Position numbers and translations under genes: made by a program
The notes under the pieces: model-generated
Databases searched by the model: none
The model's input: the letters and a program-made list of their open reading frames with translations, nothing else
Told to the model about the DNA's origin: nothing
Shown here: one piece after another, positions 28,611-55,547 of the stretch
Position numbering within the stretch: the stretch's first letter is position 1
Layout of the letters: each line of letters begins with the position of its first letter
NCBI RefSeq assembly: GCF_009828745.1
Contig: NZ_WTSX01000005.1
Coordinates: 62,001 to 126,000 of the forward strand
Direction of reading: 5' to 3'
DNA: 64,000 nucleotides
DNA from: Erysipelothrix anatis
GTDB taxonomy: Bacteria; Bacillota_I; Bacilli_A; Erysipelotrichales; Erysipelotrichaceae

Positions 28611-29764
28611 GATTGTCCTCCTTTAAGATATGCTTCGATAATTCTCGTGTTTTCATCATCCGACTCTTGGGTTACTTCAATTGCTTCTGTATAATCAGGA
28701 GATTGAATTTCTACACGAGCCTTAGGTTGACTTTGCACTTTAGTTATTGGTCTTGATACTTCATCTTGAGCTTGCTTAGCCGTTTCAATTCCTTTACGTT
28801 TCCACGTTGCCGCAATTTTTTCTACATAGTTTTTATTCAAGTTTTTATTATTATTGTCTAGGATGTATTCTATTAGAATATTAACAACCTCATCATTGAA
28901 TTTAAAGTTACTCTGTAGCGACTTAATAAGATTTTTATCTGCATCCACAACATAATCATTTTCTTGTTTATATGCAATAAAACTGATGGGATCAAGTTCA
29001 TAAGCATTTGAAACAGTATTAACATTTTGAATTCCATGGTCTCGATCAACAAGAACCTGAAACTTCCGTTTATCAAAAATCATTGTTTCAAAATTAGTTG
29101 CCGCTAGGAGCTTAGACTTCATGTCAGCATAGCTTATTTTATAGTTGCTTCCAAACTCTTCAACAACATCAATAACTTCCCGGGTTCTAAGCTGCATTGG
29201 AAAAATCATTGGATTTAAGGTCTTAAAGAAAGAACTTGCGTCAAAACGTCTTTTTCGTGATGTCTCGGCAACCGGCCTTGTAATGAATGCTGATTCAGAT
29301 TGTTCGTCCCAAGTGGACAATCTTGCAATATCAAACGGCGCAGTAATTTCTTCAGCTGTATCCGGGATTATCGGAACCTGAACATGTTCACATGCTTCGA
29401 TATACTTTTCGCGACCCATCACAATAGCATACAGACGACCAAATGTACTGTGTTCCATAAAATCAACGGGACGAAGCGGCTCTAGCAACTCCAAGGAAAG
29501 TGACTTATCAAGTTCAAATGTACGTATTAATCCAAAGCGCTCGAGCTCTTTCCGATTTGCTTCGAATTCGCGTACATCAACTTGAAGAATTCGTAGTAAT
29601 TCTCTTATTTCAACACTAGAATCTAATGTAGAAAATTCGTAAAGCGTCAAATAGAGCGATGCTGCGGGATACGAAAAAAGTGGTTGATAGTACACCAATA
29701 AACTATGCAATTGGTCGGGTGCAAGATCATATTTTTTGTTTACATGAATCACTACTTTCGCCAC
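28607..29764 (-). CDS. dnaB: Replication initiation and membrane attachment protein DnaB
   Basis: A 385-residue DnaB of the Bacillus type, not the E. coli helicase. It helps DnaD and DnaI load helicase at the origin and at restarted forks. The N terminus (LAPDQLHSLLVYYQPLFSYPAASLYLTLYEF) matches the family and the region around 270-345 resembles a DnaD-like helical domain (EYILDNNNKNLNKNYVEKIAATWKRKGI). It is shorter than the Bacillus protein (about 470). The start abuts coaE. Confidence 0.9.
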   Translation of the reverse strand: MAKVVIHVNKKYDLAPDQLHSLLVYYQPLFSYPAASLYLTLYEFSTLDSSVEIRELLRILQVDVREFEANRKELERFGLIRTFELDKSLSLELLEPLRPVDFMEHSTFGRLYAIVMGREKYIEACEHVQVPIIPDTAEEITAPFDIARLSTWDEQSESAFITRPVAETSRKRRFDASSFFKTLNPMIFPMQLRTREVIDVVEEFGSNYKISYADMKSKLLAATNFETMIFDKRKFQVLVDRDHGIQNVNTVSNAYELDPISFIAYKQENDYVVDADKNLIKSLQSNFKFNDEVVNILIEYILDNNNKNLNKNYVEKIAATWKRKGIETAKQAQDEVSRPITKVQSQPKARVEIQSPDYTEAIEVTQESDDENTRIIEAYLKGGQS

Positions 29765-30342
29765 TATTGTTCTCCTCTCAATTTATGAATAACTGCATCA
29801 ATACAGTCGTGTAATTCAGCTAACGAACCGTCGTTATTGATTACAAAATTCGATTTTTCAATTTTGGAAGCCTCATCAAGATGACGTTTCGACCGGCGAT
29901 TCACTTCAGCCTCATCAAGCCCCCGTTGAGCTAGTCTTTGAATACGTGTCGAATATGGTGCAGTTATCATCATTACTTTATCAAAAGCCTTTTCGGAATG
30001 TGATTCAAACAAGAGCGGCACTTCAAAGAATATAATTTGATTCTGGGCATTTACACGATTTACATCTTGTTGAATGTGTGGGAAGACTAAATTTTCCAGG
30101 GCATCAAGTTTTTCATAATCATTGAACACAATCGACGCTATTTTACTGCGATCAATGTCGCCAGTTGACGTAAGAATATCATGACCAAACATTGTTATTA
30201 GAGCGTCATAAAGGCGCCCGTTCTTTTCATAATAATCATGGACCATTTTATCGGTATCATAGACTTCATATCCAAGAGCACGTAGATACTCACTTGCCTG
30301 AGATTTACCGCCACCGATTGTTCCTGTAATCGCAATTTTCAT
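29764..30342 (-). CDS. coaE: Dephospho-CoA kinase
   Basis: A 192-residue kinase catalysing the final step of coenzyme A synthesis. The P-loop GTIGGGKSQASEYLR, YDTDKMVHDYY and the lid arginine segment RLAQRGLDEAEVNRR are diagnostic. ATG 30342 overlaps the mutM stop by four bases and follows AGAAGGTG; the longer frame from 30429 lies inside mutM. The polA-mutM-coaE-dnaB-dnaI order is conserved in Firmicutes. Confidence 0.94.
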   Translation of the reverse strand: MKIAITGTIGGGKSQASEYLRALGYEVYDTDKMVHDYYEKNGRLYDALITMFGHDILTSTGDIDRSKIASIVFNDYEKLDALENLVFPHIQQDVNRVNAQNQIIFFEVPLLFESHSEKAFDKVMMITAPYSTRIQRLAQRGLDEAEVNRRSKRHLDEASKIEKSNFVINNDGSLAELHDCIDAVIHKLRGEQ

Positions 30343-39135: not shown

Positions 39136-39304
39136 GCTAAGACGTCCCCTAGACATCTGTTTGTTAAAGATTGCTGTTTTTGCATTAACCCAACGTTCAT
39201 TAAGCTATTTCTAAGTACCATTCACAAATTATCCGACTTCACATCATTGCATCTCAATATTATTTTCGGTAAACAGTGTTATAATTTCCTTAGGAGTGAT
39301 AACT

Positions 39305-40324
39305 ATGAACCTTTTTGATAAAACTAAGATTAAAAACTACGAGTTGAAAAATCGCCTCGTTATGGAACCTATGTGCATGTATTCAGTATTTAAGCATGAT
39401 GGTATCCCCACATACTTCCATTTTGCGCATTATGTCTCGCGCGCAATCGGCCAAGTTGGGATGATCATCATCGAATCAACAGGCGTTGCACCAGAAGGAC
39501 GCATCACTGACGATTGCCTAGGATTATACAACGACGACCAAATTGCACCATTCAAAAATATTGTTGATGCTGTCCACGAGGAAGGATCCATTATCGGCGT
39601 TCAATTGAATCATGCGGGCCGTAAGTCAACTGCAAGTGATGGAATTGACACCATCTACGGACCTAGCGCAATAGCTTATTCTGATGATTCACGCACACCC
39701 GTAGCCCTCACAACCGACGAGATAAAACGTATCATCAAAGATTTTCAAGAAGCTGCTGTTCGTGCCGATAAGGCAGGGTTTGATGCAATTGAAATTCACG
39801 GTGCACACGGATATCTTATTTCTGAATTTATGAGCCCTGCTTCAAATCATAGGACTGACAAGTACAAAGATGGATCCGTGTTCTTACAAGAATTAACAGC
39901 TGCGGTTACCCAAGTTTGGCCAAAACATAAGATATTGTCACTACGTGTTAGTGCAACTGATTATGAACCCAATGGACAGACTGTGGACGATACAATTCGT
40001 ATGCTCGAACCTGTTGCGGCTTCATATGACTTCATTAATGTTTCATCTGGCGGAATTACAATTAATCCACCAACTAAAATATATCCTGGATATCAAGTTC
40101 CGTTTGCACATAAGATTAAGAAGGCTTTCCCCAACAACAATATTATTGCTTGTGGTATGCTAGGGAATCCCGATCTTGCGGCCTATGTCATTGAATCAGA
40201 ACAAGCTGACTACATCGGACTAGCGCGGCCTCTTCTCTCAAATGCTAACTGGGTGCTTCACGCAGCCCATGCTCGACGTAAAAACGATCTCATTACCCAA
40301 CAATATAAACGTGCTTTTAAATAG
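39305..40324 (+). CDS. NADH:flavin oxidoreductase, old yellow enzyme family
   Basis: A 339-residue FMN-dependent reductase of the YqjM/NamA branch, which reduces activated alkenes. Features are LKNRLVMEPMCMYS at the N terminus (including the Cys of this branch), QLNHAGRKS, FDAIEIHGAHGYLISEFMSP with the substrate His pair, and IACGMLGNPDLA. The ATG at 39305 has AGGAG eight bases upstream; a TATAAT-like -10 lies at about 39281-39286. It is monocistronic and ends in a terminator shared with the next gene. Confidence 0.92.
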   Translation: MNLFDKTKIKNYELKNRLVMEPMCMYSVFKHDGIPTYFHFAHYVSRAIGQVGMIIIESTGVAPEGRITDDCLGLYNDDQIAPFKNIVDAVHEEGSIIGVQLNHAGRKSTASDGIDTIYGPSAIAYSDDSRTPVALTTDEIKRIIKDFQEAAVRADKAGFDAIEIHGAHGYLISEFMSPASNHRTDKYKDGSVFLQELTAAVTQVWPKHKILSLRVSATDYEPNGQTVDDTIRMLEPVAASYDFINVSSGGITINPPTKIYPGYQVPFAHKIKKAFPNNNIIACGMLGNPDLAAYVIESEQADYIGLARPLLSNANWVLHAAHARRKNDLITQQYKRAFK

Positions 40325-52254: not shown

Positions 52255-53880
52255 ATGGCTATAGATGGCGTTTTACTACATCGCATTGTTACTTTAATGG
52301 ACGAATCGAGTCCAATCAAAATTAATCGCATTACCCAACCGTCAAACCACGAGTTTTTAATTCATGGTTTTGCTGGTAAAAAAATGAATTTAATGATTTC
52401 AACACATCCGGTATTTAGTCGCGTTCAATGGACCCGATCAAAACCTACAACGAACATTGACCAAACACACATGCTCACCTTGATGCGTAAGCATTTAGAT
52501 GGTGGTATTATTACAAAAATTGAACAATATGGTTTTGACCGAATCATTGAAATACATGTTGAACATCGCGATGATATGGGCGTGATTCGCCCGTATCGAT
52601 TAATTGTCGAGCTTCTTGGGAAGTACGCAAACGTTATTATTGTGGATGATAATGGCATTATTGTGGACGCCCTCAAACGAATTTCTCCCTTTGAAAATAC
52701 GTCACGCGCAATTGTAAGCGGAAGCACCTATGATTACCCACCACAATTTGATAAAAAGTCATTCATGGACTTAGCGACATATGATCCTGAGAGTGCATTA
52801 CGAAATCAATTTAATGGTATTTCACCTTTACTTGAACGTGAGTTGACACATCGTCTAAAAACCGAAGATGCCGATACCATCGTTCAAGAACTGATGACAT
52901 CCACAACTCTTTATGTTTATGATAATGACTTTCATATCATCCCGTTAACGCACCTCAATAAACCACATCAAGAATTTCCAATCATGGAAGGATTGGATGC
53001 TTTCTTCCACGATTTACAAGAACAAGACCGGATTAAAGCACAAACAGGAGATTTGGTTAAACTCATTCGACGGGAACTTAAACGCAGCAAACAAAAGTTA
53101 CCACGATTGTACGAAGATGTAGAAAAGGCATTAGACAGTGATCATCTACGTGAATATGGAGACCTTCTCTTCGCCTTCGCTAGCACACTTCCAAATGGGC
53201 AAAACGAGATTACGCTTGAAGACTTTAGTGGCAATCCAGTCACGATTCCGTTGGACCCTCGTTACTCTGGAAAAGACAACGCGCGACTTTATTTCAAAAA
53301 GTACCAAAAAGCGAAAACATCGATTCGTTATTTAGAAGAACAAATCGATAAAACTGAAGCCCGGATTCATTATTTTGAAGGGTTGCAAGTTCAAGTCGAA
53401 CAAGCATCCGTTGAAGATGCACAGGAAATTCAAGAAGAATTAGTATCACAAGGGATCGTTCATCAACGACGACTTAAACGACGTCAAACACAACAAAAGA
53501 AGAAAAAACCAAATTACACAACGATTGTGTATGACGATGAAACAACTATCTTTGTTGGTAAAAACAATATTCAAAATGATGCAATCACCTTTAAGCTTGC
53601 ACGAAAAGATGACATGTGGTTTCATGCTGCATACGACTTTGGCGCCCATGTCTTAATCAAAACGCCCGAATTGGACGAACAAAAGATTAGATTATGTGCT
53701 CACCTTGCAGCTTATTTTTCTAAGAGCAGACTCGGTAGTTCCGTTGAAGTACACTATACCCAAGCCCGTAATATCAAAAAAATTCCAGGTGGTCAGTTAG
53801 GTCTCGTAAGTTTATCCACTCACAAAAGTATCTTTATAGATCCTGATAAAGAACTCATCGACCACTATATCGGCAATTAA
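52255..53880 (+). CDS. rqcH: Rqc2 homologue RqcH (NFACT protein)
   Basis: A 541-residue ribosome quality control factor that binds stalled 50S subunits and adds alanine tails to trapped peptides; also annotated as fibronectin-binding protein. NFACT-N (about 1-180) keeps the DR pair at 95-96 (YGFDRIIEIH) needed for tRNA-Ala recruitment. A helical coiled-coil middle (about 255-420) is followed by NFACT-R (ARKDDMWFHAAYDFGAHVLI). It is divergent from gmk, as yloA is in Bacillus. Confidence 0.94.
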   Translation: MAIDGVLLHRIVTLMDESSPIKINRITQPSNHEFLIHGFAGKKMNLMISTHPVFSRVQWTRSKPTTNIDQTHMLTLMRKHLDGGIITKIEQYGFDRIIEIHVEHRDDMGVIRPYRLIVELLGKYANVIIVDDNGIIVDALKRISPFENTSRAIVSGSTYDYPPQFDKKSFMDLATYDPESALRNQFNGISPLLERELTHRLKTEDADTIVQELMTSTTLYVYDNDFHIIPLTHLNKPHQEFPIMEGLDAFFHDLQEQDRIKAQTGDLVKLIRRELKRSKQKLPRLYEDVEKALDSDHLREYGDLLFAFASTLPNGQNEITLEDFSGNPVTIPLDPRYSGKDNARLYFKKYQKAKTSIRYLEEQIDKTEARIHYFEGLQVQVEQASVEDAQEIQEELVSQGIVHQRRLKRRQTQQKKKKPNYTTIVYDDETTIFVGKNNIQNDAITFKLARKDDMWFHAAYDFGAHVLIKTPELDEQKIRLCAHLAAYFSKSRLGSSVEVHYTQARNIKKIPGGQLGLVSLSTHKSIFIDPDKELIDHYIGN

Positions 53881-53951
53881 TAACCATTACATAGCAAACA
53901 ACACCATGCTATACTATCTATAGAGCAAGTAAAATAAAGGAGGCATTGTAC

Positions 53952-54140
53952 ATGACACCATTTTTAGCTATTCTTCTTCCTGTATTCTCGGTCATCTTTA
54001 TGTATTTCGTAATCAAACATCTCTATATCATGCGTTGTGATGTTTGAGAAATGAAAGTGATGATGCAAGAAGCATTTGATAAGCAACACCGCCCCCATAA
54101 TGATTTTGATGCACACACGCAAGAAAAAGAGTCGGAATAA
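53952..54140 (+). pseudogene. Small membrane protein gene with in-frame TGA
   Basis: A strong ribosome site (AAAGGAGGC) precedes an ATG that opens a 63-codon frame. Codons 1-31 give a membrane segment (MTPFLAILLPVFSVIFMYFV and a short basic tail), codon 32 is TGA (54045-54047), and codons 33-62 continue in the same frame as a hydrophilic tail (EMKVMMQEAFDKQHRPHND...) to TAA within the terminator. A -10 TATACT lies at 53911-53916. It may be a recent nonsense mutation, a readthrough gene, or two short proteins. Function unknown. Confidence 0.6.
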
Positions 54141-54154
54141 TCCGACTCTTTTTT
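54124..54154. terminator. Bidirectional terminator
   Basis: An 11-bp perfect stem (AAAGAGTCGGA with TCCGACTCTTT, 4-nt loop) with A and T runs at its sides. It serves the small membrane protein gene and the converging nuclease-like gene. Confidence 0.92.
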
Positions 54155-54896
54155 ATGTTTGAGAAATTACACCTATAACTGGAAAATGATCCGAATTATA
54201 ACGCCCTTTTTCGTTTACGGCGACTACAATATCACTAGCATGAATTGTCCATGAATCGTCCAAGAAAATATAATCAATTCGTTCCATATCCATGACATCC
54301 TGTTGAGTATCAAAATCATTAAACGTTCCAAACTTTGAATCTTTCGCAACACTTTGGTACTTTGCTTCTAAAAGTTGAATCGGGGCTGCATCGGGTGTCA
54401 AGTTAAAATCACCAGTGATGATCACAGGTAAGTTTTTGTCCATCAATGTCGTTAAAACATATATTTGTTTTGCTTGTGCATCCGTTACAATATGGTCAAT
54501 GTGACATGAAGCAAATTGAAAGACAACATCTGATTTCTTAATTCGAAATGTCGCAATCGTTGCGACACGATTGCATGCTGAATTCTCAAATTTACTTGGC
54601 ACATCAGGTGTATCGGACAACCAATACGTTTTATCCTCAAGGCATTCCAATGTCTGTTCATTAAAAAGAATGGGAGATGCTTCACCTGAGCCATCAACTT
54701 CACGGGCCTGTCCAACAAGCCGATATCCGGGAATCTGTGCCAAATCATGGTATTGCTTTGGTGTTACTTCTTGTAAACCAATCACATCATAAGCATCCTT
54801 TTCCAAGGATTCTATTAAGTACTGTGACCGATATTTCCAAGAATCAACACCATCATTGGCTAATAAACGAATGTTATATGTTCCAACTTTCAACAT
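54153..54896 (-). CDS. Endonuclease/exonuclease/phosphatase family protein
   Basis: A 247-residue protein of the EEP fold. Motifs are VGTYNIRLL at the start, IGLQEVTP with the metal glutamate, SCHIDHIVTDAQAKQI, ITGDFNLTPDAAPI and the C-terminal MERIDYIFLD and NSDHFPVIGVI. Members act on DNA, sugars or phosphoesters, so the substrate stays open. There is no signal peptide. It follows the YgjP-like gene by 9 bp. Confidence 0.9.
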   Translation of the reverse strand: MLKVGTYNIRLLANDGVDSWKYRSQYLIESLEKDAYDVIGLQEVTPKQYHDLAQIPGYRLVGQAREVDGSGEASPILFNEQTLECLEDKTYWLSDTPDVPSKFENSACNRVATIATFRIKKSDVVFQFASCHIDHIVTDAQAKQIYVLTTLMDKNLPVIITGDFNLTPDAAPIQLLEAKYQSVAKDSKFGTFNDFDTQQDVMDMERIDYIFLDDSWTIHASDIVVAVNEKGRYNSDHFPVIGVISQT

Positions 54897-54905
54897 TATA
54901 GTCTC

Positions 54906-55547
54906 CTAACGCCCCTTGCGTTCTTTAATTACATATTTATAGTCTGGCATTTGTTTTTCAATAATTGCATAGAAAGCAGCACTATGATTAAATTCTAAAA
55001 TATGTGCACATTCATGCAACACGACATACTCAATGAAACGGTGATTTTCATGAAAGAGGTACGTGTTAAAGGCTAACTCACCACCACGGTTACAGCGACC
55101 ATAGATTCGCTTGTACTTTCTGATTTTATACTTTGGTACTTGGATTCCCAGCGCCAAAGCATAGTGCGTCACCAAAGCGTCAAGCTGTTTATCCAACAAA
55201 TCTTTAAGGTGAAGAAGCACCGTACGTTCTAATCGATCCACACTCCATGATGTCGGATACCTTAATATTACCGTATCCTTTTCTAGTTGAATCTCAAATT
55301 TAGCACTGGCATAATACGTGATTGGGTATGTCGTACCAAATATCTTTAACGACGGTTGTTCCCACGTAAATCCTGCCGGTTCATACGCATCTAGATGCTT
55401 CATAATCCAATGTTCTTTTTCTTTCACAAATGAATCAATCAATGGTTTTGGAGTTTGATGTGGTGCCCGTACGAATACTTCCCCATCTCTAACATGTAAT
55501 GCTAGTGTTTTCCTGTTTGAATATATAATTTCTATTTTCATAGACAT
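54906..55547 (-). CDS. YgjP-like metal-dependent hydrolase (DUF45)
   Basis: A 213-residue protein of the YgjP/WLM-related family. The zinc-metallopeptidase motif VVLHECAHILEFNHSAAFYAII, with HExxH and a third His, is near residues 173-194. KYKIRKYKRIYGRCNRGGELAFN is the conserved segment before it. Physiological substrates are unknown. Two ATG codons (55547 and 55541) compete and neither has a clear ribosome site; the longer one is given. Confidence 0.88.
   Translation of the reverse strand: MSMKIEIIYSNRKTLALHVRDGEVFVRAPHQTPKPLIDSFVKEKEHWIMKHLDAYEPAGFTWEQPSLKIFGTTYPITYYASAKFEIQLEKDTVILRYPTSWSVDRLERTVLLHLKDLLDKQLDALVTHYALALGIQVPKYKIRKYKRIYGRCNRGGELAFNTYLFHENHRFIEYVVLHECAHILEFNHSAAFYAIIEKQMPDYKYVIKERKGR

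Follow-up and report, generated by a model that had tools for sequence, protein, structure and literature searches.

In-frame stop codons are widespread in bacterial genes and are mostly short-lived (PMC7918605). Like the nonsense-interrupted genes of that survey, a small gene in the window (the whole stretch of 64,000 nucleotides of Erysipelothrix anatis DNA analysed here) is separated by a single substitution from a sense codon in a close relative and still has a conserved frame downstream of the stop; unlike them, it is very short and is found in two species only. With selenoprotein genes it shares an in-frame UGA and a conserved frame after it, but it differs from them in that selD was not matched, that neither selA nor tRNA-Sec scored above cut-off, that no significant structure follows the UGA, and that codon 32 of its ortholog is Arg (CGA) and not Cys. 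The Mollicutes are relatives of the Erysipelothrix group. Unlike the Mycoplasmatales with genetic code 4, however, the genome from which the window comes ends ordinary genes with TGA, has a prfB gene with a UGA frameshift site and yielded tRNA-Trp(CCA) as the only tRNA-Trp found, and codon 32 of the ortholog is CGA rather than the TGG of a UGA-to-Trp reassignment. We consider it very probable that a small orphan membrane-protein gene has here suffered a recent, ordinary nonsense mutation and is now a young pseudogene.

At 53952-54140 (+), an ATG opens a frame of 63 codons, the TAA counted, in which a single in-frame TGA occupies codon 32 (Table 1); the translation reads MTPFLAILLPVFSVIFMYFVIKHLYIMRCDV, a stop, EMKVMMQEAFDKQHRPHNDFDAHTQEKESE and a second stop. 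Between the Shine-Dalgarno sequence AAAGGAGGC and the ATG at 53952 lie 7 bases, and the loop that contains the TAA (54138-54140) belongs to a strong hairpin (-21.7 kcal/mol, z -7.2 by RNA folding), which is followed by T's and is common to the small gene and the convergent endonuclease/exonuclease/phosphatase-like gene. The initial annotation, which had described the ribosome-binding sequence and ATG, the 63-codon frame, the TAA within a terminator and the TGA at codon 32, agrees on all these points with the sequence, the translation and the RNA folding. The promoter-like site is likely to be the small gene's own promoter, although the scan is weak (4 sites, against 2.7 expected by chance in the region); a TATAAT-like hexamer aligns at the same place in Erysipelothrix aquatica. 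The upstream neighbour we take to be rqcH, from a reading of its translation. One stop in a frame of 62 codons would be unremarkable alone; this frame stands above chance because the uninterrupted 62-residue ortholog of E. aquatica has the same frame, ribosome-binding site, promoter-like site and terminator.

Table 1. Features of the interrupted small gene and its neighbours (window positions)
Feature	Position	Strand	Basis
rqcH, upstream neighbour	52255-53880	+	
Promoter-like site, ATTACA-18-TATACT, extended -10 (TG before second hexamer)	53886..53915	+	Consensus scan
Shine-Dalgarno AAAGGAGGC	53936..53944	+	Sequence; kept in E. aquatica (alignment)
5' part, 31 codons (transmembrane segment) and TGA	53952..54047	+	Translation
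In-frame TGA, codon 32; CGA (Arg) in E. aquatica ortholog	54045..54047	+	Codon comparison; tblastn, ortholog vs window
3' part, codons 33-62 (hydrophilic) and TAA	54048..54140	+	3/90 bases differ from E. aquatica; dN 0.027 vs rqcH dS 0.26
Bidirectional terminator hairpin, TAA in loop	54123..54154	.	RNA folding, both strands
Endonuclease/exonuclease/phosphatase-like gene, convergent to small gene	54153-54896	-	
Metallopeptidase-like gene, convergent	54906-55547		

The sole ortholog found lies at the same site, after rqcH, in the sister species E. aquatica VA92-K48 (NZ_WTSY02000034.1; G002:C34), where it encodes 62 residues without interruption (MTPLLLYFLPVISIIFMYFVIKHLYIMRCDVREMKVMMQEAFDKQHRPHNDFDANTQEKEPE). 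The ortholog has CGA at codon 32 where the window has TGA, a difference of one transition; TGG, CGA and GGA had been named beforehand as the codons that an alignment might reveal at this position, and one of the three is what the relative has. The TGA itself is known from one genome of the window's species, with which a strain-specific and a species-specific change both fit. The end of rqcH was matched in all 13 genomes of the genus, and the small gene in the window's genome and one other only. In six other genus genomes (L005, L008, L009, L010, L013 and L014) what apparently stands directly after rqcH, judged from the translations, is the convergent metallopeptidase-like gene that the window has at 54906-55547, so that the small gene, together with its convergent neighbour, seems to have been added in this lineage only. 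Among 272 genomes of the family, good matches were confined to the two Erysipelothrix species; other genera gave weak matches (E 0.001-0.007), which were not taken as homologs, and the one examined, in genome G126, was spurious, lying antisense to glycosyltransferase and polysaccharide genes. The intact ortholog has no Pfam or NCBIfam match, and the small gene no match in plasmids, phages or viral contigs.

AlphaFold2, run on the single sequence of the intact ortholog without an alignment, predicts one continuous helix from residue 3 to residue 57 (mean pLDDT 76, pTM 0.40), and residue 32 would therefore be internal to the helix rather than mark a joint between domains. The model hints at a 62-residue protein whose single transmembrane helix continues into a charged C-terminal tail; the stop may thus cut inside the helix, and only the membrane segment would then be left. 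As to function, topology alone can be guessed. The earlier placing of the TGA 'exactly between' a hydrophobic and a hydrophilic half was right about codon 32 and overstated about the boundary, the predicted helix spanning that residue.

Between the window and E. aquatica, codons 33-62 differ at 3/90 bases and codons 15-31 at 1/51; codons 1-14 differ at 12/42 and the spacer at 16/71. The synonymous difference in rqcH between the same two is 22 % (dS 0.26, dN 0.009), and dS in several other window genes is 0.08-0.30. At the rqcH synonymous rate an unconstrained 3' half would be expected to carry about 20 differences, and three or fewer have a binomial probability of about 6e-7. Set against the 22 % of rqcH, the divergence of codons 33-62 therefore indicates that selection kept the 3' half as protein during most of the period after the split, and the readthrough idea, which the initial annotation made to depend on conservation of these codons in relatives, does not fall on that count. 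Since the 3' half was apparently protein-coding for most of the divergence, sense-to-stop is the natural direction of change, and the stop at codon 32 is probably recent or, less likely, still bypassed. If all three changes arose in the window lineage after the stop, and neutral divergence is about 0.125 per lineage, the age of the stop would be at most about a quarter of that of the lineage; direction and date are both estimates, drawn from small counts and one ortholog with no outgroup. Local exchange could alternatively have caused the low divergence, one neighbouring gene having a dS of only 0.08. The 3' half is without sign of decay, and a bypassed stop would look alike; the three changes downstream of the stop have no polarity and are too few for relaxed selection to be seen. 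At the other end of the gene, the first 14 codons (53952-53993) have diverged far more than codons 15-62 (5/144, including the stop), mostly by exchange of one hydrophobic residue for another.

This organism uses UGA as a functional stop. When stop-codon usage was counted in the window, 9 of the 49 long non-overlapping ORFs were found to end in TGA. The genome's prfB gene (RF2; L040, G000:C28) scores above its profile cut-off and keeps the classical CUU-UGA-C +1 frameshift site (...LKALGDSL, CTT-TGA-C, then ...DLAQKQSK... in the +1 frame); this frameshift, the classical RF2 autoregulation, presupposes that RF2 recognizes UGA. The earlier view that general reassignment is unsupported is upheld by both results. 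None of the features of a code in which UGA is Trp, namely absence of TGA as a terminator, a tRNA-Trp(UCA) and loss of prfB, was found in the genome. In the Hirsh-type suppressor, tRNA-Trp has A24. UGA suppression by a tRNA-Trp(CCA) with a 4-bp anticodon stem has also been reported (PMC13092985). The only tRNA-Trp gene found in the genome by similarity, with anticodon CCA, has a 5-bp anticodon stem (ACGGT/ACCGT) and G24, and therefore shows neither the 4-bp-stem mechanism nor the Hirsh-type change.

The selenocysteine option, for which a search of the genome for selA and selD had been proposed, fared badly: SelD had no match in the window's genome, and the only SelA match there scored 68 bits, short of the cut-off of 267.9. 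Nothing scored over the Rfam cut-off for tRNA-Sec in the 13 genomes of the genus, and the two best-scoring loci coincide with tRNA-Leu(TAA) calls by ARAGORN. RNA folding gave no significant structure after the UGA (54030-54110, z -1.5). Selenocysteine and general UGA reassignment at codon 32 are both contradicted. Sub-cut-off SelA-like matches with in-frame stops were also seen in two relatives (G012:C11:313861-314691 and G003:C1:1319240-1320124); these are SelA-related proteins of the aminotransferase type.

The favoured explanation, and a very probable one, is that the ancestor of the window's species and E. aquatica carried a lineage-specific gene of 62 codons between rqcH and the convergent endonuclease-like gene, and that one transition from CGA to TGA, in the window's strain or species, produced the premature stop. 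Termination would be expected at codon 32 through RF2, the product would be a 31-residue membrane peptide without the C-terminal tail, and the gene would then most likely be a young pseudogene. We infer both the direction of the change and the functional loss of the truncated product, the former from comparison of the two sequences. Two features that would be looked for in a young pseudogene are found here, in that the ortholog has a sense codon and an uninterrupted frame and the organism reads TGA as a stop. Of the three options first put forward, the nonsense mutation is thus the one with positive evidence, in the CGA of the relative and the conservation of codons 33-62; selenocysteine falls away, and readthrough and coupled mini-proteins are left without positive evidence. 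The value of the locus is mainly for annotation, as a clean example of an orphan small membrane-protein gene in which a sense codon appears to have turned recently into a stop, in a genome that reads UGA as an ordinary stop and in which no selenocysteine machinery was found. A bypass of the stop would make the locus an example of a recently evolved readthrough switch instead.

It is unlikely that the UGA is leaky, with a near-cognate tRNA-Trp reading it often enough to supply full-length protein and keep the gene functional. Codons 33-62 are intact and conserved, as this reading would have it, but a recently gained stop accounts for their conservation equally well, and the sense codon in the sister species implies that readthrough is not a conserved feature. 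The base after a stop that makes it leakiest is C, whereas G follows codon 32; no suppressor-like tRNA-Trp was found in the genome, and the fold downstream is insignificant. Basal readthrough of bacterial stops is 0.1-1 %, rising to as much as about 10 % under stress (reviewed in PMC10057733), and purifying selection acts at some in-frame stops in bacterial genes (PMC7918605), both of which count in favour of leakiness. Programmed readthrough calls for a stop and a stimulating context conserved among orthologs, and here the only ortholog has CGA and no significant fold lies downstream. Still less likely is a regulatory stop, at which low-level readthrough would give little full-length protein and an excess of the 31-residue membrane peptide while codons 33-62 remained under selection.

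Lower again in probability is a split gene, in which the 31-residue membrane peptide and a 29-residue soluble peptide would both be used, the latter made by reinitiation at the codon-34 ATG (54051). That ATG lies 3 nt after the TGA, near enough for coupled reinitiation, and its 29-residue frame is open up to the TAA; yet there is no Shine-Dalgarno sequence at a usable distance before it, it is an ordinary internal Met in the intact ortholog, the junction lies within the single helix of the AlphaFold2 model, and no homolog was found in which the halves are encoded separately. Just as improbable is an error of sequencing or assembly. The case for it is that a single base in a single draft assembly (29 contigs) is at issue, but the assembly is 99.98 % complete, the neighbouring genes are intact, no other internal stops occur in credible genes, and an assembly error more typically takes the form of an indel than of a clean substitution.

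When ORFs of at least 50 residues on two E. aquatica contigs were compared with the window at 29.3-54.1 and 54.2-64 kb, the small gene alone, among credible genes, had an internal stop. Three other apparent cases (29283-29579, 29946-30122 and the start of 39209-40321) were rejected as interrupted genes, each being judged either an ORF that runs antisense to a conserved gene or the artefact of a start extended too far. A string of 13 bases, ATGTTTGAGAAAT, is present at two sites only on the window's + strand, at the TGA (54040-54052) and 115 bases downstream (54155-54167). In E. aquatica one base is different in the upstream copy, and the C-to-T change makes the two window copies identical. Short-tract conversion is conceivable as the source of that change, though a plain transition suffices. 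In E. aquatica an insertion-sequence-like element stands directly after the terminator of the small gene. The sequence CTAGTGTTGGTGAGA is found inverted at both E. aquatica contig ends (L004:2171-2283 and L016:1-128) and has 14 copies in that genome and 0 in the window's genome; a probable full copy of the element, of about 1.47 kb, lies at G002:C49:993-2458 in E. aquatica.
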